From the IMG/VR virus record IMGVR_UViG_3300034790_000119, positions 1-35,656 of that record: a DNA stretch of 35,656 nucleotides; one strand, given 5' to 3'. Below, piece by piece: positions 7,727 through 34,576 of this stretch (positions are counted from its first letter, which is position 1; the number at the start of each line of letters is the position of its first letter). The position numbers and the translations under genes are program-made. This stretch comes from a virus. Below the pieces are notes generated by a model. The model did not search any database and was not told the DNA's origin. It was given only the letters and a program-made list of their open reading frames with translations.

Positions 7727-8500
7727 TTAAAACTTATTAATATCTCTTCTTTCTATATCTTCTTCAGACAATCTATCTCCCATCCAAACCTCAATTACCT
7801 TAACTGGATTAACACCAACGTTAGTTGCTTTGTGCCAACAAAGTCTTGGAATATCAATACTATCACCAGATTTATAGATCTTAGAAGTACTGTAACCATT
7901 AGGGAATTCTAATTCCATTCTAAGATCACCATCAACAATATGCCAATGCTCAGACCTAATGTAATGTTTCTGGTCAGACAAAGACTTTCCAACATCAATG
8001 GATAATTCTTTTACTTTCCAATGACCGTTTTGATCTAAATCTCTGTATGTACCCCAGTTCCTTTGTGTCTTTGGTTTGTTCCAATTCTTTAGAATCCATG
8101 ATGAGCTATTCTTCTTATCTTCACCGCCAACACCAAACTCAAAGTGAACATCGTCAAACACCATCTCTGGAATATTATCTTTTGTTCTGTCTCCACCGTT
8201 AGCAAAAATAATTTCTGTATTACGAGGGAAGTAATCTTTAATATACGCTATGGCATCAATCGCTGTATCATCACTATCATCAAAACCAAAAACATGTCCA
8301 ACACTCTTGATATTATTAACTATATTTATACGTTCTTCGTAGGACATAAATGGCTGCCCTTTCTTACGTGTTAACCATTCATCGCTGTTTACACCAACAC
8401 ATAAGATCTGACCAAGCTTTTTAGCTTCTTCAAAATATGCGATATGTCCCGAATGAAGTGGATCAAATCCCCCAGTTACGACTACTACTCTCATTACCAT
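7727..8500 (-). CDS. Cytidylyltransferase-like domain fused to mannose-6-phosphate-isomerase-type cupin
   Basis: The N-terminal domain (about 1-135) is a nucleotidyltransferase of the TagD/RfaE-C type. It has the nucleotide-binding GGFDPLHSGH motif at residues 10-19, then VGVNSDEWL, a SYEERINIV helix and an NGGDRTKDNIPE segment. The C-terminal domain (about 155-257) is a cupin of the type II phosphomannose isomerase kind: WKVKELSIDVGKSLSDQKHY, RSEHWHIVDGDL, a SIDIPRLCWHKATN strand with a metal-type His, and KVIEVWMGDRLSEEDIERR. Activation of a sugar or polyol phosphate as a nucleotide derivative, with the cupin isomerising or binding the sugar, is likely; the substrate is unknown. The ATG at 8500 follows a GGAGG box by 7 bases. 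It is the last gene of a sugar-type block with an FkbM-type methyltransferase and a GH130-like protein. Confidence 0.82.
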   Translation of the reverse strand: MVMRVVVVTGGFDPLHSGHIAYFEEAKKLGQILCVGVNSDEWLTRKKGQPFMSYEERINIVNNIKSVGHVFGFDDSDDTAIDAIAYIKDYFPRNTEIIFANGGDRTKDNIPEMVFDDVHFEFGVGGEDKKNSSSWILKNWNKPKTQRNWGTYRDLDQNGHWKVKELSIDVGKSLSDQKHYIRSEHWHIVDGDLRMELEFPNGYSTSKIYKSGDSIDIPRLCWHKATNVGVNPVKVIEVWMGDRLSEEDIERRDINKF

Positions 8501-12497: not shown

Positions 12498-12526
12498 TTG
12501 ACATTTTGATCTACTCGTGTTATTAT
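12498..12526 (+). promoter_or_regulatory. Near-consensus sigma70 promoter of the plus-strand modification operon
   Basis: TTGACA at 12498-12503 is perfect, the spacer is 17 bases and the -10 element is TATTAT at 12521-12526 (consensus TATAAT). It precedes the first gene of the cassette by about 30 bases. Host RNA polymerase could read the operon without late factors. Confidence 0.7.
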
Positions 12527-12531
12527 AAATA
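12524..12531 (+). promoter_or_regulatory. T4-type late promoter overlapping the sigma70 -10 element
   Basis: The plus strand reads TATAAATA at 12524-12531, overlapping the TATTAT box by 3 bases. It could be used late in infection for the same operon. Confidence 0.65.
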
Positions 12532-12557
12532 TATATCGCAGCACAGTAAGGATTTAA

Positions 12558-13025
12558 ATGAATTTTCAACAGTTTGAAGAATTTCTGTTATCAGAAGATT
12601 GCTATATGAATCATGATGTATCTATTATTGATACAGATGGTCTTCAGCACTATATTAGTGAAACGGAATTCTTTACTTATCAAACGAAAATGACTAAATA
12701 TTTGGTACAAGAAAAGTATACTGTTAAAATTGAACAGATGGAAAATTATTGGAAATTTAATGATCGCACAATGCATTTATTTTATAATCCAAAGAACGGA
12801 CCAACATTCAGTGAACATACAGATCCAATCGATGTTATTATCGAATGCAAAGACGGTATTAAACATATAGAAGTAGAAGGCTGGCAATTTGATCTACTCC
12901 CGAATGAACGGCTGTATATTCCAGCAGATACATTTCACAAGGCATTAAACTATGAAAAGGCATTGGTGATATCACATGGCATTAGCGACACAGAAACACT
13001 TGAGCGTTTACGTAAAAACGACTGA
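12558..13025 (+). CDS. Cupin/JmjC-like Fe(II) dioxygenase-type protein
   Basis: The 155-residue protein has an apparent HxD...H iron facial triad: H87 and D89 in SEHTDPIDVIIECKDG, and H127 in IPADTFHKAL. The strand between them (IEVEGWQFDLLPNERLYIPA) has the cupin barrel layout, with the usual 'L.p.e.lyiPa...H' motif. It resembles small cupin or JmjC-like hydroxylases that act on peptides. The substrate is unknown. The start codon follows a TAAGGA box by 5 bases. The 3' end overlaps the next gene, a radical SAM/SPASM protein, by 50 bases, which couples the two. It is the first gene of the plus-strand cassette. Confidence 0.65.
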   Translation: MNFQQFEEFLLSEDCYMNHDVSIIDTDGLQHYISETEFFTYQTKMTKYLVQEKYTVKIEQMENYWKFNDRTMHLFYNPKNGPTFSEHTDPIDVIIECKDGIKHIEVEGWQFDLLPNERLYIPADTFHKALNYEKALVISHGISDTETLERLRKND

Positions 13026-13983
13026 AACATGTAATTTAGATTGCTCTCATTGTTTCACCTCAGGCTCTAAAGGTGCAAAAATCTATTTTGATCCGGTTCG
13101 GACTGCGAATTGGCTTAACCAGCTAGATAGAGACACAATCTTTTATGAATTTCACGGTGGCGAGCCTATGCTTGCTTCTGTAGAATCGATGATGAAGTTT
13201 GTTGAACTTACTAAAGGCGAAGGTGTAGAATACGGCACAACTACAAACCTTGTATATAAGTTAACAGATGAAAAGCTAAAGTTCTTTGATGAGGTTCTTA
13301 ATAAAAGAATTGGTACATCATGGGATCCTACAATTAGATTTACTAATGAAAAGCAAAGACAGCTATGGGAAGACAATGTTAAATTCCTCGTTGCTCGTGG
13401 TTACACAATTAAAGTCTTTGTTAGTTTAAGTAAAGACGTAGTTAATATGGAACCAAGAGATATTTGTTCTTACATGGAAGATCTCGGTATTCAAGAAATT
13501 GATTTCGAGCGTATTACTATGGACGGTAACGCTAAAGGTAAAATGTGGCCATCTAACATTGAGTTAGACGAATGGTTCGTAAGGTACCACTCTCAGATTG
13601 AATCTAGAGATGGAATACAACATGTAATCATGGAAAACATATATGCTAAGTTTGAGGATAATAATCCATCGCGAGGCACATGGTGCAGAGACTGTGAACA
13701 AAAACTATTAACTATTAACGCTAATGGATCTATAGCAGGTTGCCCTAACACGGCGCCAAGCAAGGCGTATGGTCATATCGATACACCAGCAAGTGAAGTC
13801 ATGAAATCAGACGGACGCTGTAGTATTATCATAAAAGAACTAAACAGAAATCCAGCATGTTATGAATGTCCAGTGTTTGATGTGTGTGGTTCTGATTGTC
13901 ACCAATTAGAATGGGAAGGCGACATATGCCCGTCTCCGAAGACTCTAATGATGCAATTAAAGAATGAATATAAATATAAATAA
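12976..13983 (+). CDS. Radical SAM/SPASM protein 1
   Basis: The 335-residue protein binds the [4Fe-4S] radical SAM cluster through CNLDCSHC (C19, C23, C26). It has the glycine-rich EFHGGEP motif at about 58-64, which helps bind SAM. Its C-terminal SPASM-type cysteines are C237, C240, C256, C295, C298, C304, C308 and C318, enough for two auxiliary [4Fe-4S] clusters. Such proteins modify ribosomal peptides, for example by making thioether or carbon-carbon links. The start codon lies inside the preceding gene (50-base overlap), with a GGTGAT box close by. It is followed at a 28-base gap by the putative substrate gene at 14012, whose late promoters lie in the last codons of this gene. Confidence 0.88.
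   Translation: MALATQKHLSVYVKTTETCNLDCSHCFTSGSKGAKIYFDPVRTANWLNQLDRDTIFYEFHGGEPMLASVESMMKFVELTKGEGVEYGTTTNLVYKLTDEKLKFFDEVLNKRIGTSWDPTIRFTNEKQRQLWEDNVKFLVARGYTIKVFVSLSKDVVNMEPRDICSYMEDLGIQEIDFERITMDGNAKGKMWPSNIELDEWFVRYHSQIESRDGIQHVIMENIYAKFEDNNPSRGTWCRDCEQKLLTINANGSIAGCPNTAPSKAYGHIDTPASEVMKSDGRCSIIIKELNRNPACYECPVFDVCGSDCHQLEWEGDICPSPKTLMMQLKNEYKYK
13969..13982 (+). promoter_or_regulatory. Two overlapping T4-type late promoters before the (CHxS)3 protein gene
   Basis: Plus-strand copies of TATAAATA lie at 13969-13976 and 13975-13982, sharing two bases. They overlap the last codons of the preceding radical SAM gene (the ending reads NEYKYK) and lie 30 to 36 bases before the start at 14012. 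Late transcription starting here would make the substrate gene more abundant than the enzyme upstream. Confidence 0.65.
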
Positions 13984-14011
13984 TGCAAAGAACACACGGA
14001 GTTAGTATAAC

Positions 14012-14596
14012 ATGGTATCATTAACAAATAACGTAAGCAGATCAAACGTCCGACAAAGATGGGAAGATTATGTTGCGGACGCTGCTCGTGCAGGTATTTC
14101 GTGGGGATACAACAGAAAGCCGTTTTCCCAAGCACCCAATAGCTGGTTTGGTGGTAATTACAACTCACCCCCAGCGAGAAGTTCTTACGCTAGTGATAAT
14201 ACAATTGGTAGTTCTGGTGGATTGATTACTGCTTCTACGCTACGTAATGGTTTAGTCGGTGCTACTACTAACTGGACTCACTTACGAAATATGAATGCGC
14301 GCAGATATTATAACTATCAAGGATCGTGGCAACTTCAATATAACTCAACAGCAAAAGCATATCAAACTACAGGTGTTAGAGCAGCCATTGCCGCTCCGGG
14401 TATTCCAACTAATGGCCCAAACGCAGGTAATCTTATTACAAAAGGTTCAGACTCAAGTAATACTGGTCTTGAAGAATACTTCGCCAGATTACGCAGTGCG
14501 TATTATACTCGCCGTAATCAAGCCGTGGGTCGGTATGCGTATGTATGTCATTACAGTTGCCATTCTAGCTGCCATGGATCGAGAGGACGTAGATAA
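14012..14596 (+). CDS. Candidate modified protein/precursor with C-terminal (CHxS)3-RGRR tail
   Basis: I do not recognise a domain with a known function. The 194-residue protein is rich in Asn, Ser, Gly, Tyr, Arg and Ala. The N-terminal part (about 8-40, VSRSNVRQRWEDYVADAARAG) is predicted to be helical. The middle is Gly/Ser/Asn-rich (SSGGLITASTLRNGLVGATTNW), with aromatic strands around 97-130. The tail is a helix (LEEYFARLRSAYYTRRN) and then CHYS, CHSS and CHGS at 179-190, ending RGRR at 191-194. No other cysteine occurs in the protein. The tail period is exactly four residues. The gene has its own late promoters at 13969-13982. A GGAG box lies 12 bases before the ATG, and the stop overlaps the next start (TAATG). 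A modified virion protein or RiPP-like precursor is inferred from the tail and the flanking enzymes. Confidence 0.7.
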   Translation: MVSLTNNVSRSNVRQRWEDYVADAARAGISWGYNRKPFSQAPNSWFGGNYNSPPARSSYASDNTIGSSGGLITASTLRNGLVGATTNWTHLRNMNARRYYNYQGSWQLQYNSTAKAYQTTGVRAAIAAPGIPTNGPNAGNLITKGSDSSNTGLEEYFARLRSAYYTRRNQAVGRYAYVCHYSCHSSCHGSRGRR

Positions 14597-15345
14597 TGAT
14601 AAAAAATACCGTGGCTCCTATTCCTATTGAGTTGCTTAAGGAATATTTTAGTGATGATACTATTGTTTTCAATATTGATTACGCCGAAAGTATTTTAAAA
14701 GGTGATAAGCTTATAACATATCTGAGTAACTTAGATGTGCCGTGCACCTTAACTGGCTGGGAAAAAGTATCAACTGAAGATAAGTTTTCTTTTATTAAAG
14801 ATTACATGAATGCCAAGTTAGTTATTAAGAACTATGAATTAGAAGTATGTGTTCTAAAGATTTTATACGAACTGTCTTACTTAGAATTCTGGGCTGAATA
14901 CCCAGAAACTGAAAGCATTTTAACATATGAAGAGACTTGTAATTTCTGCGAAGCTAACCAAGATATGATTGAGCAATGGTTAACTATCGTGGCAAGTTGT
15001 TCTATATATGCATTAACGACCGTTGGCGAAGATAGTGATTTAACTGAGCTAGTACTAGAAGAATTCGAAACAATAGACGATTATGACTACTGTGGTGTAA
15101 ACTTCGTAATGTTATTTAGACACGAATTAACACAAGAATTATTAAGCGCTGATCGCCCCGTATACTATTTCGATAAACAGTTTAACGAGCCAATGTTTAA
15201 AGGTCAAGACCTATTTACATATTGGGACCATAATAACAACACCATGGCTTGCATTACGCAGGGTATTTCATCCGGAGAAATTACCCACGACGAATTCACT
15301 GCTAATATAGAAAAAGGATTGGACGATGTTTCTGCTATTCGATAG
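14596..15345 (+). CDS. Unknown acidic protein following the (CHxS)3 protein
   Basis: I do not recognise this 249-residue protein. It is acidic, mostly helical and has no membrane segment, and no catalytic motif stands out. It has several scattered cysteines (around residues 50, 85, 125-130, 150 and 170), some in CNFCEAN-like spacing near 125. Its ATG overlaps the stop of the preceding gene (TAATG), with GAGAGGA 8 bases upstream, so it is translated together with the (CHxS)3 protein. The end overlaps the following gene by 20 bases. A partner, chaperone or scaffold for that protein is possible but not shown. Confidence 0.6.
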   Translation: MIKNTVAPIPIELLKEYFSDDTIVFNIDYAESILKGDKLITYLSNLDVPCTLTGWEKVSTEDKFSFIKDYMNAKLVIKNYELEVCVLKILYELSYLEFWAEYPETESILTYEETCNFCEANQDMIEQWLTIVASCSIYALTTVGEDSDLTELVLEEFETIDDYDYCGVNFVMLFRHELTQELLSADRPVYYFDKQFNEPMFKGQDLFTYWDHNNNTMACITQGISSGEITHDEFTANIEKGLDDVSAIR

Positions 15346-16483
15346 AGTTTATGTAAAGTACGACTTCATGATAGACAACAATACTGATAACTTAATTTGT
15401 ACTCCTAACATTCCAAATCTTATCTGGGATGAATTAGAAGCCATCCATAGTGGTATGGGTGAACAGATGCATAGGGTAGATAGTTATGAAGATCTTGTTG
15501 GTATCGCTGAAGTTGGTGCCTTAGATGATAACGATGAGCAAATTGTTATTCCTTATCTTAATGACTTAGCGTTCTTTGATGCTCTATTAACAAAAGGCAA
15601 AGTAAACATTCACGTTGATACAACTGCGTATGATAAGATCTTTTCTAAGTTTTTAAAAATCTTTTTTCCAAGTATGTCGAGAGATGTTGCATGGAAAACA
15701 TATAATATCTTTAGAACAAATAGCCAACTGCTGAATACTACTAGCTTTGTATGGGGCGGAAATGGCGAGCAAACTCAAATTGATAATGCTGCCGCGTGGA
15801 TACCTAGAACAAAAACAGAATTTCTTTCGGTTTATGATACAGTATCAAGAGATTTAGAAGATGATGCATATACTACTTTTATAGCCTCTGCAAAGCAAAA
15901 AATTGGTATTGAGTTTATGATTGCTAATAGACTAGCTGGCGATGAATCTTATGATGTTTTCCTTGGTGAAAAGATGTATAAGCTTATGGCTTCAAGAGTT
16001 AACGACGAAGGTACGTTCTTAAAATCTACATTGTTTAACAATATGTTCAGACCTTGGGTACAAACTGTGCTAGGTGTTACTGTAAATGCAAATGACGACT
16101 TATTAGATCTTAAAGATACTAATGATATGACACGTTGGGTGTTTGACGATACTGAGCGGTATTTCACCGCAGATTACCAAACAAATCATCCAAATGTTCG
16201 ATTTAGTGCTATTCGTACTGCAATGATAACAGCAGTTACGGGATCTACTTTAGAGGTAGAAGAAGCGCTCACAAACGAATCAATGGATTTTGTCCACGAT
16301 AATGTTTCAGTTCAAAACTTTACTTCTGCTAATATCACAACTATATTAAACACTGATAAAACTTACTTAGGGCCATCTGTATTTGAAATTGAAAATAGAC
16401 TAAAAGTTAATGCTCTGTTTATAGGTTATATGTATAAGTTATCCGTTGACGCAGATGCTGAGTTGAGTATGTTTAGCCTATGA
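15326..16483 (+). CDS. Unknown 385-residue protein in the modification operon
   Basis: I do not recognise this protein. It is acidic and rich in Asn, Asp and Thr, with aromatic clusters (FFDALL, KIFFPSMSRDVAWKTYNIFR) and alternating helices and strands. It has only one cysteine, near the N-terminus (ICTPNIPNLIW), and no nucleotide-binding or metal motif that I can see. The start at 15326 is supported by AAGGA 7 bases upstream and lies inside the end of the preceding gene. Its last 4 bases overlap the next gene (ATGA). Together with 14596 it lies between the (CHxS)3 protein and the oxidising enzymes. It may be structural or may present the substrate. Confidence 0.55.
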   Translation: MFLLFDRVYVKYDFMIDNNTDNLICTPNIPNLIWDELEAIHSGMGEQMHRVDSYEDLVGIAEVGALDDNDEQIVIPYLNDLAFFDALLTKGKVNIHVDTTAYDKIFSKFLKIFFPSMSRDVAWKTYNIFRTNSQLLNTTSFVWGGNGEQTQIDNAAAWIPRTKTEFLSVYDTVSRDLEDDAYTTFIASAKQKIGIEFMIANRLAGDESYDVFLGEKMYKLMASRVNDEGTFLKSTLFNNMFRPWVQTVLGVTVNANDDLLDLKDTNDMTRWVFDDTERYFTADYQTNHPNVRFSAIRTAMITAVTGSTLEVEEALTNESMDFVHDNVSVQNFTSANITTILNTDKTYLGPSVFEIENRLKVNALFIGYMYKLSVDADAELSMFSL

Positions 16484-17022
16484 TACAAAACTGCTATGAA
16501 TCTTCGATATGGGTTAAACAATTTGACAATAGCAACGAGTTCAATCAAGATGTTTTAAATGTCACTAAAGCAATATCGGCTACAACTCCTGAGCCTGTAG
16601 CCGATCATAACGTTGATCTATGGGTGTCTGATAATATGCAGACTATTAGATCATATTTTATGGAAGGCTTTAAAGACTTGTGCAGTACATATAATGAAAA
16701 ATCAGACTTTGATATAGATTCTATGAACATGGTTAATCCCATGAATCACGGTGACTTTAAGTCATGCCACAACCACGATGTTATCGACGCGTTCGGTGTT
16801 TATTATGTTAATGAATCAGACGAAGGCGGTAAGCTAAGATTATACGATCCAAGATTCCTTAGCAAGAAATCATTTTCACAAGGTCCTTATATTGAGATAA
16901 AGCCACGAACTGGTCTTATGGTAATTGCACCATATTATGTTTGGCACGAGGTTACTCCATATCTAGGTAATGAAACCCGATACAGTTTAATATGTAACAT
17001 GGTATTTAATAATGTCACTTGA
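16480..17022 (+). CDS. 2OG-Fe(II) oxygenase (2OG-FeII_Oxy_5 type)
   Basis: The 180-residue protein has SCHNHDVIDAFGVYYV at about 95-110, with H97, H99 and D100 as candidate metal ligands. GGKLRLYDPRF follows at about 116-126, then LMVIAPYYVWHEVTPY at about 146-161 with H156 as distal ligand, and R167 as the likely 2-oxoglutarate anchor (TRYSL). This is the same arrangement as the minus-strand oxygenase at 11890 and the next one at 17973. The start overlaps the upstream gene by 4 bases. It lies directly before radical SAM protein 2, overlapping it by 11 bases. It probably hydroxylates a peptide or protein side chain. Confidence 0.83.
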   Translation: MIQNCYESSIWVKQFDNSNEFNQDVLNVTKAISATTPEPVADHNVDLWVSDNMQTIRSYFMEGFKDLCSTYNEKSDFDIDSMNMVNPMNHGDFKSCHNHDVIDAFGVYYVNESDEGGKLRLYDPRFLSKKSFSQGPYIEIKPRTGLMVIAPYYVWHEVTPYLGNETRYSLICNMVFNNVT

Positions 17023-18004
17023 TATAATAACAAAGACGGGTAAACGAGCAAACACTGGTGAGATCATTGTTACCCTCTTCGAATTCTGTAACCTAAGCTG
17101 CAAGTTTTGCAATCAAGATCATGATAGTCTAGAAGGTGTTAAGACTATAGCTGAAAAGGTCGACGTTGTAAAAAAGGTTATAATGCAAACACCGAGAGAA
17201 AAATACAGTATCCACTTTATGGGTGGCGAAGTTTTTGCTGACGCGTTGCCTTTACACGTATATACCGATTATCAATATGTATGTCACGAATTAAACTCAT
17301 GGGCAACCGAGCAAGATATCGAACTAGAGATATGCTTTACTAGTAATATGGTATTTGATAACATGGATGATTTAGATGAGTTTCTTCATATCTCTAATCC
17401 TAAAATATTAACTAGCTTTGACCCTGCTGCACGCTTTAATAATGATACGTTTGAGATTTTTAAGCGCAATGTAAAGAAGTACAAAGACCATATTAAGTCT
17501 GTTAATATAATCATGACTAAGCCGACAATAAATAAGTTTATGAAAGGCGACGTTGAATTTTTTGATTATCTTTATGATAATTTCGACGTTTACTTTGATT
17601 ACTATACACCTGAAAAGAACATGGCGATGTTTATTCCTAATGATGTAATGCTACGCGATTTTATGATCTATATGCTCGAACATTATCCTAAGGCACTACC
17701 CTTCGCGGATTACACGAGTAAGATTAAGAAACAAATGAGCTGTATGGATACGATGACTATTATGCCAGATAATTCGTTTGGCAATTGCACTATCCTACTA
17801 AAAGATTTTAAAAATGTAACGACAACTAAGCAAGACATGGAACAGGAATGGTTTAAGCAATATAGTTGTTTAACCTGTCCACACTTTCAATACTGTTCTA
17901 TGGGTTGCTTTTTGTCTAATCACATGCAGAGTTTTAGAACTCAAGAAACGTGTTGGTTAAGTGAGGTTTATGATGTGGTCCACCCCGATTCAAATATTCA
18001 ATGA
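17012..18004 (+). CDS. Radical SAM/SPASM protein 2
   Basis: The 330-residue protein has the radical SAM cluster motif CNLSCKFC (C26, C30, C33) and the glycine motif FMGGEVF at about 69-75. C-terminal auxiliary-cluster cysteines are at C244, C259, C286, C289, C295, C299 and C314, the CxxC-x5-C-x3-C type of the SPASM domain. The middle has SFDPAARFNNDTF, matching the TSWDPTIRFTNEKQ region of protein 1 in position. The start lies 11 bases inside the upstream oxygenase gene. It overlaps the next oxygenase gene by 32 bases. It probably modifies the same substrate class as the other radical SAM enzymes here. Confidence 0.88.
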   Translation: MSLDIITKTGKRANTGEIIVTLFEFCNLSCKFCNQDHDSLEGVKTIAEKVDVVKKVIMQTPREKYSIHFMGGEVFADALPLHVYTDYQYVCHELNSWATEQDIELEICFTSNMVFDNMDDLDEFLHISNPKILTSFDPAARFNNDTFEIFKRNVKKYKDHIKSVNIIMTKPTINKFMKGDVEFFDYLYDNFDVYFDYYTPEKNMAMFIPNDVMLRDFMIYMLEHYPKALPFADYTSKIKKQMSCMDTMTIMPDNSFGNCTILLKDFKNVTTTKQDMEQEWFKQYSCLTCPHFQYCSMGCFLSNHMQSFRTQETCWLSEVYDVVHPDSNIQ

Positions 18005-18470
18005 TGGTTATAAAAAGCCAGTAGAAAGATATAGAGATTTTCTAAAAGAACATTTTAATCTTAATTTAGAAAATTTTAATTATGAAATAAGAGAGTGGGA
18101 AACAACCCCAGGCTCTGGCTATTGGTTAGCACCGCATAATCATGGGCATTCGCATTTTACAGCAATTCATTACAGTTATGTTTCCGGAGAAGGCGGTGAA
18201 TTAATCCTGCATGACCCAAGAGTGAACGCTAATAGAGGATTCCCACAAGAATTTGGATCTGAGTTTGCGCCATACATAATTAAACCAGAAACCGGAATGA
18301 CTGCTATATTTCCATCTTATATCTACCATACAGTCGCGCCTTTTAGAGGCATGATAAGAGAAGGAAAGGTAAGTGAAATTCAATTAAATAGCCCACGTAC
18401 TATTGACAATTTAATAGAAGAAGGTTATATTAATATGGATAATGCGCATTTAGGAGCTACCCCAATATGA
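17973..18470 (+). CDS. 2OG-Fe(II) oxygenase (2OG-FeII_Oxy_5 type)
   Basis: I place the start at the ATG at 17973, which follows GTGAGG by 6 bases. An ATG at 17970 and a GTG at 17961 are also possible. The protein (about 165 residues) has LAPHNHGHSHFTAIHYSYV with H55 and H57, GGELILHDPRVNANRGF, then AIFPSYIYHTVAPFRG with H119, and a closing R (about 129). This matches the minus-strand oxygenase at 11890, including the DPRxNANRG element shared by both. A C-terminal extension of about 30 residues (SPRTIDNLIEEGYINMD) is specific to this copy. It starts inside the radical SAM gene, and its stop overlaps the next gene by 4 bases. Confidence 0.83.
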   Translation: MWSTPIQIFNDGYKKPVERYRDFLKEHFNLNLENFNYEIREWETTPGSGYWLAPHNHGHSHFTAIHYSYVSGEGGELILHDPRVNANRGFPQEFGSEFAPYIIKPETGMTAIFPSYIYHTVAPFRGMIREGKVSEIQLNSPRTIDNLIEEGYINMDNAHLGATPI

Positions 18471-19105
18471 ATATTAATAAATTCTATACAGACGGATATG
18501 ACGAATGGCAAATGCCACCACACTTATCAGCTATGGTTTGGGGACAGCTACTATGTGAGAATTGGATTGATCATCCCGTATATAAAGAAATTCCAGACTG
18601 GAGTATTAATAAAGGCGGTGAAGCCCAAAACCAAGATCAAAAATATCTTAGAGGTAAAGAGCAAGAGATTAACGAACAAAGCTTATCTATCGTTCCGTCA
18701 GTATATAAAACAGTAATAGAAGAATTGCTCAAAGAAGATTACTATTCAGAATGGTTTGAGACTGTATGTGGTTATCAACAAAAGATTAAATTCATCGATG
18801 TTTGGAATGGATCTGACGATCTTAAATGGCATTGGGACGGTGTAGAAGACCACGATATGGGATTTCTAATATACTTTACAGAACAATATCAATGGAATGA
18901 AGAATGGAAATCATATCTTCAAATCGGCGAAAGAGAGTGGCCTAATGATAAAGAGATCAATATTAAACACACAGCATATCCTAGCAATGGTAAGATTATC
19001 TTGCTAAATAACATGAACCCGAGATTCGTGCATTCTGTGGCAAAACTGACAAACGCTAATGTTAATAGATATACTATTAACGCAGGGATTTCTTTATGGA
19101 ACTAA
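18467..19105 (+). CDS. 2OG-Fe(II) oxygenase (HxD type, group 2)
   Basis: The 212-residue protein has WHWDGVEDHDMGFLIYFT at about 121-138 with H122 and D124 as iron ligands, then YPSNGKIILLNNMNPRFVHSV at about 171-191 with H189 as distal ligand, and R201 as the 2-oxoglutarate anchor. The N-terminal third has W-rich elements (WQMPPHLSAMVWGQLLCENW). The LNNMNPRFVH and RYTIN elements are nearly the same as LNNNDPSFVH and RYTII in the 20643 product, so the two are paralogues. The start overlaps the upstream gene by 4 bases. It is directly followed by radical SAM protein 3, overlapping by 10 bases. Confidence 0.83.
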   Translation: MNINKFYTDGYDEWQMPPHLSAMVWGQLLCENWIDHPVYKEIPDWSINKGGEAQNQDQKYLRGKEQEINEQSLSIVPSVYKTVIEELLKEDYYSEWFETVCGYQQKIKFIDVWNGSDDLKWHWDGVEDHDMGFLIYFTEQYQWNEEWKSYLQIGEREWPNDKEINIKHTAYPSNGKIILLNNMNPRFVHSVAKLTNANVNRYTINAGISLWN

Positions 19106-20097
19106 TTATTAAACCAACCGAGAAATGCAATTTTAAATGCACATTCTGTTCAAGCACATCAATTGCAGATGATGCTACAGATGAACTAGGTTTAGAACAT
19201 ATTTACACGTTTCTTAAAAGATTTCCTGATACGAATACTATCATTGTAAACGGCGGTGATCCTTTAATGATGAAGCCGTCTTATTACACAAAGCTGCTTG
19301 ATCATCTTGACGAACACGACTATCCTACTACAGTAGCCTTTACAACAAATCTATGGCCATTTTATATGAAGCCAGATAAGTGGATTGATATCTTCTTGCA
19401 TCCTCGTATAGGCATTACAACGAGTTTTCATTATGGCGAATCAAGACTAAAAGGTGATTATTCTGTATTTACTGAAGAAGACTTCTGGGCAGCATCAGAC
19501 AAAATGCTAGAACTTGTTGGGTATCGGCCAGGATTCATATCAGTTATAGATGAACACAACGCAGACAGAGCACTTGATAATGTACGCCTCGCAAAAAAGA
19601 TGGGTGTTGAATGTAAACTGAATTACACAATGGCGTCTGGTATTGCCGGTCGTCCTTATCAATTATCAAAAATGTATAGTATCTATTTAGATGTATATGA
19701 GGCTGGTTTAACTGAGTGGGAATTCAATACTAAACAAATGGTTGTGAGACTTCGTAATGAAGCTTTGATGTGTCCTCAGAATAGAGCTTGTGATAGTACT
19801 ATTAGAGCATTGCAACCAAGCGGAGACTATTATAGTTGTGGAGCGATGGGTGATGATAGAGAATACGCTATTGATTTTGAACGAGAGATGGCTGGCGAAT
19901 TCTTTACCCCTCTACAGGAAGATCCTGATATCCAAACAATGCGGACTGACGGTGAATGTTATTCATGCCCAATGTTTCAAATTTGTAACGGATGCAAGAA
20001 AACAGTAAAAGACACTAAACGTCATAACATGGTTGAGACCCACTGCACTTTGATGAAACAATTAGCACCGAGGATTGTAGATGCAAATAACGGATAA
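19096..20097 (+). CDS. Radical SAM/SPASM protein 3
   Basis: The 333-residue protein has CNFKCTFC (C11, C15, C18), VNGGDPL at about 51-57 and a TTNL segment that matches TSNM and TTNL in the other copies. SPASM-type cysteines are at C226, C232, C248, C288, C291, C297, C300 and C317, with CYSCPMFQICNGC as the clear CxxC-x5-C-x2-C core. The ATG at 19096 follows AGGGA by 7 bases and lies inside the preceding oxygenase gene. The following oxygenase overlaps by 17 bases. The best guess is peptide modification in the same pathway, with a different residue or cross-link. Confidence 0.88.
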   Translation: MELIIKPTEKCNFKCTFCSSTSIADDATDELGLEHIYTFLKRFPDTNTIIVNGGDPLMMKPSYYTKLLDHLDEHDYPTTVAFTTNLWPFYMKPDKWIDIFLHPRIGITTSFHYGESRLKGDYSVFTEEDFWAASDKMLELVGYRPGFISVIDEHNADRALDNVRLAKKMGVECKLNYTMASGIAGRPYQLSKMYSIYLDVYEAGLTEWEFNTKQMVVRLRNEALMCPQNRACDSTIRALQPSGDYYSCGAMGDDREYAIDFEREMAGEFFTPLQEDPDIQTMRTDGECYSCPMFQICNGCKKTVKDTKRHNMVETHCTLMKQLAPRIVDANNG

Positions 20098-20653
20098 CGC
20101 GCTATCACCTATTGAATTTAAAAAAATACTAAATTACTTTACGTCAGAAGCACCAGATTGGAAATTTGTTACTAATGTAACCCACGGTTCTGTTACAGAA
20201 CATGGGCGTGATAAGTGGGGATTCGCGTGCAGCATATATGATTGTGGTAATGGAATAGGCCGCAACTCAACAGAAAAGATAATAGATAGAACTGCTTTAA
20301 AAATAATTGAACCGATAATTATCGATAAAAATAAATTACTCAGAGTTCGCGTTGGTATGATAATAAATGTAGGTCCTGATGAACCACACAATCCTCATAT
20401 AGATCAACATGGAATAGAGCATTTGACTCAAATATATTACTTAACTGCAAGTGATGCACTAACTAATGTATTTGAAGAATATGGTCTTGATGAAAAATAC
20501 AAAACGTACAAACCTGAAGATTTTACTATTAAAATGCAGTCTAAACCTGAGCCTAACAGAATGCTTGTATTTGACGGCTTTCATTGGCATAGCTCATCGC
20601 ACGTTTACGGGCCAGAAGTAAGAATATCGGTGAATATTAATTATGCTAAGTAA
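20081..20653 (+). CDS. 2OG-Fe(II) oxygenase (prolyl-hydroxylase-like type)
   Basis: The 190-residue protein has NPHIDQHG at about 104-111 with H106 and D108 as iron ligands, LTQIYYLTA as the central strand, MLVFDGFHWHSSSHV at about 161-175 with H170 (or H174) as distal ligand, and R181 binding 2-oxoglutarate. The layout is that of the 2OG-FeII_Oxy_3/prolyl hydroxylase group and it is not closely similar to the other oxygenases here. The start has GAGGA 6 bases upstream. It overlaps radical SAM protein 3 (17 bases) and the next oxygenase (11 bases), which places two successive oxygenases before radical SAM protein 4. Confidence 0.83.
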   Translation: MQITDNALSPIEFKKILNYFTSEAPDWKFVTNVTHGSVTEHGRDKWGFACSIYDCGNGIGRNSTEKIIDRTALKIIEPIIIDKNKLLRVRVGMIINVGPDEPHNPHIDQHGIEHLTQIYYLTASDALTNVFEEYGLDEKYKTYKPEDFTIKMQSKPEPNRMLVFDGFHWHSSSHVYGPEVRISVNINYAK

Positions 20654-21362
20654 TAGTCCAAACTTCAATAACTTATATCTTAAAGGCGCAGACATAGTTG
20701 ACGTTGACCCATCGTTCTCTGCAATGCTGTTTGCTCAGTTAATGTCGGAGGAATTTTCTACAGAAAGTAGTTATGGCGCTTCTATAACTAACCCTATATG
20801 GGATAGAGAATATAATGAAAGAGAAGAGCCCATTTATATTGAAGGTAAGAAGCCGTATGCAGAATTCTTCAAAGAGGTTATTAAATCTCCGTACTTTGAC
20901 TATTGGAGAAACGTTTACGGAGAGTTTGACGAGATACATGTCAATGTTAACAAAGTAATGGCTGGTGGCGAGATGCCTTGGCACTTCGATGGATATGATG
21001 GAACATTTCTACAAATACTTTGCTATCCTAACATGGATGATTTTGATACTGATGATGGTGGACATTTGCTAGTAGGCAGACCTGATACGTTATATCGCGA
21101 AGGTGATCCTATGCCGCACTGGGTACCAGAAAAAAGCTTAGATGATATTCTAACAAGCAACGTAGAAGTAACACAGAGGTTTGTTCCTAATAGAAACCAG
21201 ATAGTTGTTCTTAATAATAACGATCCATCGTTTGTGCATAGAGTAACAAAGCTTAGTGCTGAGAAAACAAGATATACTATAATTGCAACACTAGGATTTA
21301 GTTCTTTGTGGAAGACAAATAAATTGAAGTCTGGGTTCTATAAGGATATACAGTTACTATGA
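20643..21362 (+). CDS. 2OG-Fe(II) oxygenase (HxD type, group 2)
   Basis: The 239-residue protein has MPWHFDGYDGTFLQILCY at about 111-128 with H114 and D116, then a GGHLLVGRPD segment, and LNNNDPSFVHRV at about 190-201 with H199, followed by R210. It is a paralogue of the 18467 product: the 'FSAM.(F/W).QL' N-terminus, WH.DG, LNN..P.FVH and RYTI elements are shared in order. A 27-residue tail follows the core (about 213-239). The start is inside the preceding gene and the last 4 bases overlap radical SAM protein 4. Duplication within the cassette is likely. Confidence 0.83.
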   Translation: MLSNSPNFNNLYLKGADIVDVDPSFSAMLFAQLMSEEFSTESSYGASITNPIWDREYNEREEPIYIEGKKPYAEFFKEVIKSPYFDYWRNVYGEFDEIHVNVNKVMAGGEMPWHFDGYDGTFLQILCYPNMDDFDTDDGGHLLVGRPDTLYREGDPMPHWVPEKSLDDILTSNVEVTQRFVPNRNQIVVLNNNDPSFVHRVTKLSAEKTRYTIIATLGFSSLWKTNKLKSGFYKDIQLL

Positions 21363-22255
21363 TTATATCATTAAACCCAACTTACTTGTGCAACTTTAGA
21401 TGTGATTTCTGTTACCTAACGCCAGATCAATTAGCAGATAAGAATAAAATTGATTTAACCGTTCTCGACCAACGCTTATCTGAAGTAGCAAAACACGCTC
21501 CTATTGAGCACATTGATTTGTATGGTGGTGAGATTAGTGTACTGGGCGACTCGTATTTTTATGCTATGAAAGAAAATATTCGTAGATATTATCAAGGCGA
21601 CATTAATATTATAACAAACTATGCATCACCTAAGCCGTATATGCATGATAAGGATATATCTCTTTCAGTATCATATGACTTTGGCGCGCGTGAAAAATCT
21701 GATTTAGTATTTACTAATATGATTATGTGTCCTGTTCCAATCTCAATTCTAATACTTGCTAGCAGAAAAGTTATTGATATGGACGTTAAGTCTATGGTAC
21801 AACAATTAAGTATGTTATCTAATATTCGTTCTGTAGAGATTAAACCATATTCAACGAACCAAGCTAACCAACAAGATGTTACTCATAAGGACTTCGAGGA
21901 CTTTGTTATTAAATGGCTTGAGATGGACTTACCGTTTGAGTTTGAAAACAGGCACCGCATAGAAGATTCAATTACTAAATACTACGACGCATTCAGTAAC
22001 AATCACGTTTACATTAATCCTAACGGTAAGTTTTCCGTTCTAGAATTTGATGAAGACGACAATGAATACTTTCTAGAATTGAATTCGTTTGATGAGTATA
22101 GAGAGTGGGCTAAAAACGAAGCAAAAGATAATACAAGTGACATATGTAGAAATTGTGAATACTACGGTCATTGTTTAACTGAACATTATAGATATGTTAC
22201 AGATTTAACTAATAGTTGTAATGGCTATAAAGGCTTATTAGAATGGGCAAAGTAA
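21359..22255 (+). CDS. Radical SAM protein 4, shortened C-terminal cysteine domain
   Basis: The 298-residue protein has CNFRCDFC (C11, C15, C18) and YGGEIS at about 55-60. Unlike the other three, it lacks the first pair of SPASM cysteines: the segment after VYINPNGKFSVLEF has none. It keeps only CRNCEYYGHC (C263, C266, C272) and C287. It may therefore bind one auxiliary cluster, as in twitch domains. The middle is also shorter. It is preceded by the oxygenase at 20643 (4-base overlap) and followed by the halogenase (13-base overlap). It could make a different modification, or act as a partner, but the sequence does not decide. Confidence 0.85.
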   Translation: MIISLNPTYLCNFRCDFCYLTPDQLADKNKIDLTVLDQRLSEVAKHAPIEHIDLYGGEISVLGDSYFYAMKENIRRYYQGDINIITNYASPKPYMHDKDISLSVSYDFGAREKSDLVFTNMIMCPVPISILILASRKVIDMDVKSMVQQLSMLSNIRSVEIKPYSTNQANQQDVTHKDFEDFVIKWLEMDLPFEFENRHRIEDSITKYYDAFSNNHVYINPNGKFSVLEFDEDDNEYFLELNSFDEYREWAKNEAKDNTSDICRNCEYYGHCLTEHYRYVTDLTNSCNGYKGLLEWAK

Positions 22256-23508
22256 AAGTATTAATATGTGGGGGTGGTACTGCTGGTTGGTTAGCAGCAT
22301 TAATGATGCATGATAAATTTGATGTAACACTTATCGAAAGTGAATCTATTCCTCCAATTGGTGTGGGCGAAAGTACAACTGAAACAGTAACGGACGTAAT
22401 GCGCACGGCCGGAATTGATATGAAAGACTTTGTATCAAAAACAAATGCAACGGGCAAATACGGTGTACAGTTTACTGGATGGCCAGACTATTTCCATCCA
22501 TTTGGAGAGACTTGGTTACAAGAACATATTGATGAAGGTAAACTTGAATCGATGTATAGTGCTGGGCATAATATAAGTAATTTATCCCCGTATACCCATT
22601 TAGCACAAGACGGAACAGAACCGCCACTTGATTTTAAAGACTCGTTTTTTCATGATGTTGCCTTACATTGGCAAAACGATCTTGTTGCTCCTTATTTAAA
22701 AGAGTTTCTAGGCAACAAGATTAAGCACCACTATCATGATATAAAAACAGTAAAGACAGATAAGAATGGGGTTAAGTCTGTTGACTCGTTTACTGCTGAC
22801 TATTATATTGATTGTACTGGATCAGCAAGACTCCTTAGTAAACAGTTTGGGATAGAATATATTCCATTTGATGATATACATCTTGATTCTGCAGTAGTAT
22901 ATTCTAAACCTAAAATTGATTGCTATTATACTGAATCAATTAAACGAAAGTTTGGGTGGGAGTGGTCGATCCCATTACAAGATAGAAACAATAGAGGGTA
23001 TGTTTATTGTTCTAAGTGGGCTACTGAACAAGAGATATTAGACGAGATTGGTATTAAAGAAGATTATAGAATCGTGCGGTTCTCTGCTGGTGTTTTAACT
23101 AACATTGCATATAAGAATGTTATATCAAACGGTCTCTCTGCACACTTCATAGAACCACTTGAAGCTACTAATATTGAGTTTGGAATATTTACTATCAGGT
23201 GGTTCATGGAAGCAATCGAATCCGGATATAATTATAGAGCGCTTAATGATAAACTACTAGCGACTGTAACAGAGATTAGAGATTTTATCATCTTTCATTA
23301 TCACAATGATGATAGGTTTCGGACAATAGACAATGCTGAAGATCGCACAACGATAGAACCTTGGCATCCTTTCAACTGGTACTGCGTTGCTCAAGGTGTA
23401 AGTTTAAAAAATGAGATAAATAACGATATGGATGCTTTACTAGATTATGCGATTATTGAGGGGAAAATGCATGAAAGAATGGCAAGCAAGACAAGAGATC
23501 TACCGTAG
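22243..23508 (+). CDS. Flavin-dependent tryptophan-halogenase-type protein
   Basis: The 421-residue protein has the FAD-binding CGGGTAGWLAAL at about 9-20, IPPIGVGESTTE at about 36-47, the lysine-bearing segment GKYGVQFTGW at about 71-80 (K72 is in the place of the catalytic Lys of PrnA/RebH), the halogenase hallmark WEWSIP at 239-244, and HFIEPLEATN at about 301-310, the region of the catalytic Glu. It would use FADH2, oxygen and a halide to halogenate an electron-rich ring such as Trp or Tyr, and needs a flavin reductase, which I do not see in the window. It is shorter than bacterial Trp halogenases (about 510-540). A related viral enzyme (VirX1, cyanophage Syn10) is known. It overlaps radical SAM protein 4 by 13 bases. 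Confidence 0.9.
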   Translation: MGKVKVLICGGGTAGWLAALMMHDKFDVTLIESESIPPIGVGESTTETVTDVMRTAGIDMKDFVSKTNATGKYGVQFTGWPDYFHPFGETWLQEHIDEGKLESMYSAGHNISNLSPYTHLAQDGTEPPLDFKDSFFHDVALHWQNDLVAPYLKEFLGNKIKHHYHDIKTVKTDKNGVKSVDSFTADYYIDCTGSARLLSKQFGIEYIPFDDIHLDSAVVYSKPKIDCYYTESIKRKFGWEWSIPLQDRNNRGYVYCSKWATEQEILDEIGIKEDYRIVRFSAGVLTNIAYKNVISNGLSAHFIEPLEATNIEFGIFTIRWFMEAIESGYNYRALNDKLLATVTEIRDFIIFHYHNDDRFRTIDNAEDRTTIEPWHPFNWYCVAQGVSLKNEINNDMDALLDYAIIEGKMHERMASKTRDLP

Positions 23509-23863
23509 GTTAAACAAACCAACAACAGACGATCTCAGCAAATTTGATATTGTATGGAGACCCGATACAATTGTTGAAGATGCTTTAAGACACTTTAAAG
23601 AACACGTAGGTGAATGGATATATCCAGGCAAGTCGTACTTTGTTGCGATCTGTTATGCTACGTGGATCGCTAATGAATTTAATGAAAAACTTATCGAAGT
23701 ATTAGATGATCCTGATTTACTACCAGACGATCCATACTTCCTACCGTATAACTTAGCCCGTGAAGAGTATGACCAAATTCTCAAGAATTTAAAATGGCAT
23801 GATACTGACGGCATGGTTCCAGATGTTCGCAAATACTATGATGAAGAGATGCATTATGATTGA
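23471..23863 (+). CDS. Unknown small acidic protein downstream of halogenase
   Basis: I do not recognise this protein. I place the start at 23471, where ATG follows GAGGGG by 7 bases, giving 130 residues. A frame opening 8 codons earlier has no such site. It begins MKEWQARQEIYRRLNK and has a helix-rich middle (EDALRHFKEHVGEW, then YFVAICYATWIANEFNEKLIEVL) and an acidic Tyr-rich tail (VRKYYDEEMHYD). There are no metal motifs. It overlaps the halogenase by 38 bases and the next gene by 8 bases. A halogenase partner or substrate-binding protein is possible but unproven. Confidence 0.55.
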   Translation: MKEWQARQEIYRRLNKPTTDDLSKFDIVWRPDTIVEDALRHFKEHVGEWIYPGKSYFVAICYATWIANEFNEKLIEVLDDPDLLPDDPYFLPYNLAREEYDQILKNLKWHDTDGMVPDVRKYYDEEMHYD

Positions 23864-24416
23864 GAAGAATGCGCCTCCGTTGATTGAGAATAAGTGGTCT
23901 ACTGACGGTGAACAGAGATTTTATAGACCTGAATCTTTTAATGATTTGCCTGCGTTTATTTCAAAAGTTGGAATAGAGTTAATTGGTGTGAGTGAAAAAA
24001 GTATCAATGTTACATATGATAATCATCCTACTAAAAAGATATTAAAGGTTTTTAACGTAACAAAGAAGCATGCGTATTGTGATTATTATGCTATAGAGAT
24101 TTTTGATGATCATCAGGTGTTAAAGATATACGATCAAGATCTTTCGAAGTATCCATTACCATCATTACCACCTGGATCAAGATTAGATCCTCTTAAATCA
24201 GGAATAGGTATTCAATATCCAAATAGCGATGTAGCAAAGATTTATTTTTTGCATGATGATGTAAGCGTTGTGCATGAATGGTTTAAAGATATGAATCCAG
24301 TAATAGCCGATGCTGTTACAAGACTTACTTATTTTGGTTTAGAATATAATTTAAAAACTTTATTATTGACAAACCTTTCACAATATGATCTATATGAGGA
24401 TGAAGACCTTGGGTAA
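23856..24416 (+). CDS. Unknown protein, 186 residues
   Basis: I do not recognise this protein. The start at 23856 has GAAGAG 7 bases upstream and overlaps the preceding stop by 8 bases, so the product begins MIEKNAPPLIENKW. An earlier in-frame ATG (23799) lies deep inside the upstream gene and is less likely. The sequence alternates strands and helices with many Asp, Lys and Tyr residues (KILKVFNVTKKHAYCDYYAIEIFDDH), has one cysteine (around residue 75) and no clear catalytic motif. It sits between the unknown 23471 gene and the P-loop gene. Confidence 0.5.
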   Translation: MIEKNAPPLIENKWSTDGEQRFYRPESFNDLPAFISKVGIELIGVSEKSINVTYDNHPTKKILKVFNVTKKHAYCDYYAIEIFDDHQVLKIYDQDLSKYPLPSLPPGSRLDPLKSGIGIQYPNSDVAKIYFLHDDVSVVHEWFKDMNPVIADAVTRLTYFGLEYNLKTLLLTNLSQYDLYEDEDLG

Positions 24417-24993
24417 AGCAAATAAAAGAATAGCAGTAGTAGGTGCACACGGCGTAGGTAAGAATACCATCGCTATCAAATTACTTGAACGTGAGAAGTT
24501 TAGTGAACGTGGTGTTAACGTAACATATATGCCTGAGACCGTACGATCAACTATGTTTATGGACCACAACATTCTAGGTAAAGAGATTGGTGGTAATTAT
24601 TACTCAGTCAGCTGGTTATTCCATAGACATTGGAGCCAAATGCTTGAACACGAATATAGTTGTGATGTGTTTATCTCTAAACGTCTTCCACTAGATTACG
24701 TAGTATTTAATGAAGTTGCGTATCAGCTAGGAATGGTTGATAGATTGCTCGAGCCTACATATACGCTATTAGCAGTAGATCAAGCAAAAGAGTTTGATGA
24801 AGTTTGGTTTGTAAGACATAATCCTGAACACGAAATGGTTGAAGATAGTGTAAGGCAAGGCGATGCTGGTAGCGCTGACCTCCAACCATTATGGGATAAG
24901 CGCTACAAAGACATCATTGATAGTTGGAATATTCCTGTAATTGAAGGAACGTGTGGAGAGTTGCTAGCTCTCCACTTTGATGTTAAACCTTAA
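24400..24993 (+). CDS. P-loop NTPase (AAA_28/nucleoside kinase-like)
   Basis: The protein of about 197 residues has a P-loop GAHGVGKNT close to its start, where Asn replaces the usual Ser/Thr after the lysine and Thr follows. The RIAVVGAHGVGKNTIAIKLLE start and the SCDVFISKRLPLDYVVFNE segment (like Walker B followed by a lid region) resemble AAA_28/NadR-type kinases. The start is ambiguous: ATG at 24385, 24394 or 24400, or a TTG at 24409 with GAGGA 8 bases upstream, are all possible. I chose 24400. It is the last gene of the cassette, and its end overlaps the giant fibre gene of the opposite strand by 11 bases, so the two are convergent. It may be a cofactor kinase for the cassette or an independent moron gene. 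Confidence 0.7.
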   Translation: MKTLGKANKRIAVVGAHGVGKNTIAIKLLEREKFSERGVNVTYMPETVRSTMFMDHNILGKEIGGNYYSVSWLFHRHWSQMLEHEYSCDVFISKRLPLDYVVFNEVAYQLGMVDRLLEPTYTLLAVDQAKEFDEVWFVRHNPEHEMVEDSVRQGDAGSADLQPLWDKRYKDIIDSWNIPVIEGTCGELLALHFDVKP

Positions 24994-27900
24994 CTTCTAC
25001 TTCACCGTTTTCGCTATCACTTAGAGCGATACCAATGATCTCGTAGCTATTCACGCCTGGGGTGCCATAATCAACACCCTTGGCTTTACCATCAGCGTCT
25101 GGGATAACCCATTGGCCTTTCTTAACATCACCATTTACTAAGCATGGAATACGACCTTTAAGAGCAATGAATGGATTCATTTTTGCTTTCTTAGAAGTAC
25201 TTCCTGGCGCGATACCCATATCGTTCATTTGAACAGCTGGGTTAGTAGAGATAACACCTAATAAAGGCATTCCTGGCTGCCATAAAGTAGCTTCAGAATC
25301 ACCGTCAAGGTTAACACCTAACACAGTCGCGTTTTCATAGATTGCATCAGCAGTATATCGTTCCGCCAAATCCGCCCAGCGAGCTGACGTTGCTGTACCG
25401 ACATATAGACCGTTGTTATCAATGTAAGATCTGTTACTACCGTTACGACGGAACTGGCAAATAAGCGTTGAGTTACCACCAGCTTCAATATAGAAACGGT
25501 TTGAGTGATATTCAATCTTACCAGCATCGTTACCAATGTTACCAGTCCAAGACTCGTTGCCAGACTCAATGAAACGTAGAGTTGGTGAGTAACCATCTGT
25601 GTGACGAGTTTGTAATTGCCATTGACCCGCAGCGTTAAGATCACCAGCATAAGTTCTGTCACCATACATCCAACGACACATTGTACCGTTATATGTTGCT
25701 CTAAGTTGTAGAGACATAGATGAAGAGTTGTTGTTACCAGTGATAGCCCAATACTGACCTTGATAAGAGTATGAGTGTGAACCAGTTGCTTGGTTGTACA
25801 TACCAGTTCGAGCATTATCATTACGTAACCAACTTCTTGAGTAAATCTCAGTAGCACGCAATGAACCGTTGAGGTTAGTACCTGATGATGGATCACAATA
25901 GAAACCAGTGTTATTAGAATCAATAAAGCTACTAGCGTATATTGCAGCGCCGTTGCCGCTGTTAACACCTAGTACTGGAATTGTTCTCCAAGTTCTGAAT
26001 CCGCCCCAAGTAGAACGGAATCGTAAGTTCTCAATTGGTCCACCAACCATCTGCCAACCGTAACGGCTTGAGCCATTTGAATAGTGGAATGCTTGAGTAC
26101 CAACCCAGTGAGATGTACCAGAAGGTTGGTTACCTGGATTAGACCACGTATCGATGAAACCAGAACCCCAGTTACCAACCGTGTTGAAGTCCTGAGTTCC
26201 CCAACCCATTGAACCAACCCAGTAGTTTGTATCACTGGTATAGTTAGGACGACGCATGAATGTTTCGGCAGATGATCTTGTCTGACCAGAGATGTTCATT
26301 TGTGCTTTAGTTCTAGCACTTACACCTTCAAATCGTGTTGAGTTAACCGATGCACCGTTGAAGTAATAAGCTGTGTTATTAGTATCGTAGAAGATCGGAG
26401 CTCGGAAACTGTTTGTAGAGGTACTGATACCAGATGTCCACATTCCAGTACCGATTGCGCTTCGAGTAGTACCGTTATGCTGAATCAACAGCTGATGGCT
26501 TAAACCAGACTTAGTTTGACCGCCGTGGTTAGTGTGTGACCAAGATAGACCGTATAGATTACCAGAACTAGTACCGTTTGCAGGTAAGTTATAAGAAGTA
26601 CCCATTGACCAAACGTGCTGCATTCTTGTAGAACTATATAAACCGTAAACACCGTGACCGTAGTTACTCGCAACCCAAGCTTTTTGTGTGTTCATGTAAG
26701 ATTGAGCGTTAATGTTAACACGGGATAAGTTAGAGGTTGCATTTGGATCTACATAGTAACCACTATTGTTGCGATCGTACATAATATTGGCATATAAGTT
26801 ACCATATACTTCAGTTGTACCACTGTTAGTTCTTAATGCCCAGCTTCCAGCTTGGTTAAGGAAACCAATGTTGTTGCTGTTATCAGCATAAACGTGACCA
26901 CGAACGTTATTACCACTCGTTGCAAATTGGATGGCCTGAGTATTACCAGTACCATACAATCTCCAGTTTGTATTGCTAACAGCCATCCAATGCTGAGCAT
27001 ATGGAGTGCTATACATTCCTCGACCGCCGGAATCGTTACGGAACCAACCATCGTTGTAAATTTCACCACGAACATCTAACGTGCTCATTACTGATGTAGA
27101 TGCTGGATTTGAATAATAAGCAGTGTTATTTCTATCATACGAAGTTGGGAAGTATGAATTACCAGCACTGTTAATTTCAGCTGCAATAGAGTTTGCACCA
27201 TTACCAAAGTATGTAGTATTACCATCATAATAGTTAATGTATGTGCTGTAGCCGCTTGCGGAATCTAGATGCAAGTTGCCGTTAGTAGTACTTACAGAAG
27301 CAACTGATGTATTATTAACATAACCTTGGCGACCGTCACCGCCAACTAATAAGTATTTACCCCACGTTGGGTTTGGACCATGCAAAGCACCACCGCGAAT
27401 ACGCTGTGCTGAGTTAGAAGTAGATGTTAGATCTAACTTGTAACCTGTATCATCTTCATCATAGAAGATATTAGCATATAAACTATTACCACCACCATCT
27501 GGGTTCTCATTGTAAACTGCAACGTTTCTATACGTAGAATATGCAGTACCTGAGTTGAAAGACTGTTGCCAGATTTTCATGCCAATGCCAGATTTCTTGA
27601 ATGTTACAAGATTGTCTGAACCACCAGAAGAGTCTGTATAAGATCTCATGTGGAGGTAATCGGCGTAAGGCGCAGAGTTGTTATTAGCCCAAGAGGTGAA
27701 ACCAAACGTTAAACGTCCTGCTGGATCTTCGTTAGGTTCAATAGTGCGGTTATCTTTACGTAGTAATCCACCTGAATAACCATTAATGTTACCTTGGATA
27801 ACGTTATCTACTTGCAATGTTAATAGTCTAGAAGTACCATTACCATCTATTTTATAAGCAGTGTTATTTGAATCATACATGATAGGAGTACGCAACTGGT

Positions 27901-34525: not shown

Positions 34526-34576
34526 TCGGTTCACTCTCCCCAGTAAGGCTTTTATTAAACTATTATTTGTTTAGTG

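Follow-up and report, generated by a model that had tools for sequence, protein, structure and literature searches.

Late transcription in T4 starts from promoters that consist of an 8-bp box with the consensus TATAAATA and have no −35 sequence (PMC2988020). In marine cyanomyoviruses (S-PM2) the late box takes the form NATAAATA, and an early-plus-late promoter arrangement has been described (PMC2984593). Two radical-SAM maturation systems come closest to the enzymes of the operon considered here. In the His-Xaa-Ser (Hxs) system, comprising the substrate HxsA and the radical SAM proteins HxsB and HxsC, a repeated C-terminal H-x-S likewise occurs beside radical SAM/SPASM enzymes; unlike in Hxs, however, the phage repeat has a Cys before each His and an RGRR end, and the protein bearing it has no NCBIfam match. 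Ranthipeptide or CXXX-repeat maturation (PapB, TIGR04115) shares the Cys at every fourth residue, and rSAM1 of the phage has a SPASM domain and weak similarity to PapB, but the phage substrate is a folded 190-aa protein rather than a short precursor. A literature search found no paper on phage RiPPs of such a kind or on the (CHxS)3 motif.

Layout of the Operon and Its Substrate-Type Protein

The window (the whole stretch of DNA analyzed, a 35.7-kb virus record) comes from a T4-like myovirus described as marine, its terminase subunits, sheath stabilizer, head closure and adaptor proteins matching T4-type PHROGs. It is AT-rich (38% GC), and at the DNA level 12500-15400 has no match among known phages. 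On the plus strand, 12558-24993 forms an operon of modification enzymes that includes a cupin-like protein, four radical SAM proteins, several 2OG-Fe(II) oxygenases and a tryptophan-halogenase-like protein. Its first gene (12558-13025) encodes a cupin/JmjC-like protein of 155 aa, with a weak profile match below the cut-off and a cupin annotation in phage FLC6. The second (12976-13983) encodes rSAM1, which by profile matches is a radical SAM/SPASM protein resembling peptide maturases; it scores 39.8 bits against HxsB (cut-off 370), 20.2 against TIGR04115 (cut-off 350) and 35.1 against PapB (cut-off 340), and so falls outside both the Hxs and the CXXX-repeat/ranthipeptide families as defined by these models; nor does the substrate match HxsA. 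After the substrate gene (14012-14596) come a 249-aa protein of phrog_20767 (14596-15345), whose start overlaps the substrate stop (TAATGA), and the rest of the operon (15326-24993), namely a 385-aa protein (15326-16483), 2OG-Fe(II) oxygenases, rSAM2-4, the tryptophan-halogenase-like FAD enzyme and small proteins. The 249-aa and 385-aa proteins are usual companions of the substrate, and where it is missing beside rSAM1 they are missing there too. On the minus strand, 24983-34534 encodes a giant fibre-like protein of 3183 aa; in other phages a homologue of its C-terminus stands immediately before substrate genes. A strong terminator-like hairpin of 10 pairs (24953-24975) lies between this gene and the convergent operon. 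In the structural region, 7727-8500 combines a cytidylyltransferase-like domain and a mannose-6-phosphate-isomerase-type cupin domain in one protein.

The substrate-type protein has 194 aa and ends in CHYSCHSSCHGSRGRR. Its (CHxS)3-RGRR tail spans residues 179-194 (14546-14593), and C179, H180, S182, C183, C187, H188, R191, R193 and R194 are invariant among 20 homologues. An AlphaFold (AF2) model (pLDDT 82, pTM 0.78) had no Foldseek match in the PDB with E below 0.001. The protein has no match in Pfam, and its sole match in PHROGs is phrog_35144, of unknown function. Protein searches of known phages with this protein and with its homologue from locus L037 returned no match, and homologues were reached through rSAM1. 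Tails of the (CHxS)3-RxRR type are widespread, occurring in at least 120 viral stretches, many of them as tandem substrate pairs; among the matches listed there are 95 substrate clusters at 75% identity. CHxSCHxSCHxSRGRR-type ends also occur in proteins encoded on contigs assigned to Bdellovibrio-like bacteria (Bacteriovoracaceae, Bdellovibrionaceae, Halobacteriovoraceae; loci L053, L054, L058, L063, L065, L066, L067 and L070). Among the matches listed, 60 of the 95 substrates directly follow rSAM1. This adjacency, together with the invariant Cys, His and Arg residues, suggests that rSAM1 modifies the tail, and the substrate is probably modified by radical-SAM enzymes.

An Octamer Pair in Front of the Substrate Gene

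A preliminary description of this DNA had noticed two overlapping TATAAATA octamers at the end of the radical SAM gene, ahead of the gene at 14012, and no other perfect copy inside the plus-strand operon; both observations hold. Positions 13966-13983 read GAA TAT AAA TAT AAA TAA, with the rSAM1 stop codon at 13981-13983. The first octamer (13969-13976) lies within rSAM1 codons and is conserved in relatives; the second (13975-13982) overlaps it by 2 nt. Both are in sense orientation, 37-43 nt 5′ of the ATG at 14012, and a Shine-Dalgarno-like GGAG (13998-14001) precedes that ATG by 10 nt. Between 12558 and 24993 neither strand has a perfect TATAAATA besides this pair, and the looser NATAAATA adds just two sites within coding sequence, at 17527 and 23415; one further TATAAATA occurs at the operon head (12524-12531). 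The doubling emphasized in the preliminary description is kept as two perfect copies in the window and its nearest clade (L001-L003), and as one perfect copy plus one NATAAATA variant in the sister clade (L004-L006, L016). Other clades have a single copy, so the doubling is not essential.

The pair has the attributes of a T4-type late promoter, namely the octamer, the sense position shortly upstream of a gene and the lack of a −35 element: 15-19 nt from the octamers, the best match to one is 3/6. T4 late promoters depend on gp55, gp33 and gp45, and relatives with larger records encode gp55 (G004, G009, G011, G012) and gp45 (G004, G009, G011), while both are absent from the window, itself a genome fragment. 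The locus differs from T4 in that two overlapping octamers lie inside the upstream enzyme gene and in that the starts are predicted ones. Under the T4 rule, which places the octamer at −13 to −6 (PMC2988020), transcription would begin at A13982 and at A13988, a little 5′ of the 13990-14000 interval in which the preliminary description had expected it.

The operon head is built differently. At 12498-12531, TTGACA, a 17-nt spacer and TATTAT (an 11/12 sigma-70 match with an extended −10) are fused to the TATAAATA at 12524-12531, and about eight lineages keep this composite as TTGACATTT...TGnTAnTATAAATA, with the general form TTGACA-17-TAnTAT. It looks like an early-plus-late promoter resembling the cyanomyovirus arrangement. 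Cyanomyoviruses are likewise described as combining sigma-70 and late boxes, and NATAAATA variants are present before substrate genes; unlike in S-PM2, the boxes at the window's head are fused into one element. Since TATAAA is one base off TATAAT, the substrate octamers could in principle be a host sigma-70 (early) promoter with TATAAA as its −10 box. That they have no counterpart to the TTGACA of the operon head, and that, among the matches listed, TTGAC or TGACA lies near just 2 of the 34 octamers before substrate genes, makes this reading highly improbable. We consider it very probable that the octamers are an internal T4-type late promoter that boosts the (CHxS)3-RGRR protein, with the head used both early and late and the protein as a virion end-product. 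The earlier proposal that the substrate gene has a late promoter of its own thus gains support from conservation, position, the lack of a −35 element and the presence of gp55 and gp45 in relatives.

Conservation of the Octamer

Chance-level frequency of the octamer in an AT-rich genome had been named as grounds for rejecting the promoter. By raw count, the window has 11 copies of TATAAATA against 5.4 expected, and 2 of 100 shuffles reach 11, a mild excess. Their placement, by contrast, is non-random, with 9 of the 11 sense-oriented and at most 80 nt upstream of a gene, where 0.42 would be expected (Poisson p ~8e-10).

The search for rSAM1 homologues yielded 37 viral loci, and a direct search for substrate homologues yielded 6. 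For aligned operon genes, NATAAATA was scored up to 90 nt upstream and distinct upstreams were counted. It precedes the operon's first gene in 8/16 and the substrate gene in 9/15 distinct upstreams, compared with 0/17 for rSAM1, 0/18 for the 249-aa gene and 0/14, 0/16 and 0/13 for rSAM2-4. All internal genes other than the substrate, pooled, have it in 8/142 (substrate versus these, Fisher p = 7e-7). In the window's clade the codons divide the octamer as TAT AAA TA; L010, L017 and L018 divide it as T ATA AAT A (or C ATA AAT A), and the encoded rSAM1 tails differ accordingly (EYKYK* versus DINN). A DNA word has therefore been kept while the protein changed, which suggests selection on the octamer at the DNA level. 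On the rSAM1 tree its presence amounts to one gain; this points to conservation rather than repeated invention, and closely related loci are not independent observations.

Across the family, octamers were sought from −110 to −15 of start codons chosen by rule. Among the matches listed, TATAAATA precedes 22 of 95 substrate clusters (23%) and 25 of the 724 remaining ORFs of these loci (3.5%; p = 4e-10), and an antisense copy precedes 0 of 95. The count before homologues of the 14012 gene, which the preliminary description had proposed, is thus above background in related operons and in the wider family. The 22 include an octamer at −97 in L020, L026 and L040 that was discounted, since it probably reflects coding sequence (YKY codons close to the SPASM cysteines). 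A reversed-octamer control was dropped because true sites contaminate it through their ATAAATA core, and the antisense copy, shuffles and neighboring ORFs were used instead. Among the matches listed, the octamer is absent from 65 of the 95 clusters, including the gp55-bearing clades L026, L037 and L039, and is therefore not required; loci above 41% GC have it in 0 of 18 clusters. The phiKZ-like phages FLC6 and DT01 have no gp55 match, so its absence there is expected.

These distributions bear on whether the octamers are mere chance, AT-rich codons of the rSAM1 tail (EYKYK*) that happen to read TATAAATATAAATA. The base composition, a raw count only about twice expectation and the close DNA similarity of the nearest homologues, in which codons and promoter cannot be told apart, are all compatible with such an origin. 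Retention in different codon frames across clades, enrichment before substrate genes family-wide and the lack of an octamer at the 3′ end of rSAM1 in loci with no adjacent substrate leave it very unlikely.

Where the Substrate Has Moved

The last of these points comes from the subclade L025 and L027-L035, in which another rSAM gene directly follows rSAM1 and neither substrate nor octamer is present there; L027 and its close kin retain the operon-head promoter despite the missing substrate. Conversely, G010 and G018 have two tandem substrates directly behind the giant fibre gene; 74 nt upstream of the first of them lies TATAAATA, within the final codons of the fibre gene. In the window, the corresponding stretch of the fibre gene is GTGAATAG, and no substrate follows that gene. 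Among the matches listed, NATAAATA precedes 10 of the 15 fibre-following substrates and 1 of 13 second members of tandem pairs. L050 (G010:11500-16500) and L051 share one run of the fibre gene, two tandem substrates and proteins of 407 and 376 aa; the 407-aa protein has a possible CxxxCxxC radical-SAM motif, and the run is an alternative layout of the system.

The promoter could also be a genuine late one that serves the whole downstream operon (p249, the oxygenases, rSAM2-4) and not the substrate in particular. The TAATGA overlap and the presence of only weak plus-strand terminator-like sites between the substrate and 24953 fit this, because with such an overlap and no convincing terminator the downstream enzymes should share the late transcript. 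Octamers before substrate genes behind fibre genes, away from rSAM1, speak against it. We regard it as a possibility of some weight, if a doubtful one, and it is compatible in part with an internal promoter that boosts the substrate, which probably serves the downstream enzymes too. The preliminary description had expected the substrate to be needed in larger amounts than the enzymes. This is arguable solely with respect to the upstream cupin and rSAM1, and lateness as such does not separate substrate from enzymes, since a perfect late octamer closes the operon-head promoter as well.

From these features we infer the following course of expression. Host RNA polymerase with a phage gp55-like sigma factor, tethered to the sliding clamp, would read the octamer pair, and late transcripts would start at about 13982/13988 with a leader of 24-30 nt and the GGAG. 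This would add to the late expression of the (CHxS)3-RGRR protein and of the genes that follow, while the host-sigma-70 plus late promoter at the head would supply the cupin and rSAM1 early and late. Maturation enzymes would thus be present first, to be followed late by a burst of the substrate protein; its Cys/His/Ser tail would be modified, and the protein would become part of the virion, probably together with the fibres.

A Probable Virion Protein and Its Proposed Tail Modification

The virion idea, also put forward in the preliminary description, need not rest on the promoter. The substrate homologue in Agrobacterium phage Atu_ph07 is FDI40_gp170 (CDS 170), and CDS 170-215 is one of three clusters holding virion proteins by ESI-MS/MS, with gp170 as its first gene, at its edge (PMC6102473). 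Gene numbers in that paper and in the record coincide (gp198 portal, gp204 prohead core, gp215 major head protein), and from the cluster boundary we infer that gp170 is probably among the proteins detected. The AlphaFold model of the substrate matches an Atu_ph07 protein of gp170's length (296 aa) in a viral structure library. Atu_ph07 shares the gene order as well, with gp172, rSAM1 (gp171) and then a (CHxS)3-RSRR protein (gp170). It differs in that its octamer is CATAAATA, which may be chance and was not taken as evidence, the genome having no excess of TATAAATA (41 versus 44 in the control). Furthermore, 15 of the 95 substrate clusters among the matches listed lie directly behind a giant fibre gene. 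With the Atu_ph07 cluster, this linkage lends the idea support, and relatives of the substrate appear to belong to the virion.

The proposed late promoter is of the known T4 kind, and the novelty lies more in the phage (CHxS)3-RGRR system. A broader proposal, which we think about equally likely to hold or to fail, is that a widespread system (in T4-like, Rak2-like and phiKZ-like phages) comprises a virion protein, probably fibre-associated, whose (CHxS)3-RGRR tail is modified by radical-SAM enzymes and oxygenases, with the enzymes made early and the substrate boosted late. The order of expression, with maturases early and late and the substrate late, is testable for what is apparently an undescribed post-translational modification system of phages, and the tail modification can be checked by mass spectrometry on the cultured phages Atu_ph07 and FLC6. 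If the proposal is true, a RiPP-like modification would be built into a virus particle, and a (CHxS)3 tail modified in virions would mean that phage particles carry radical-SAM-made chemistry, perhaps on their adhesion apparatus.
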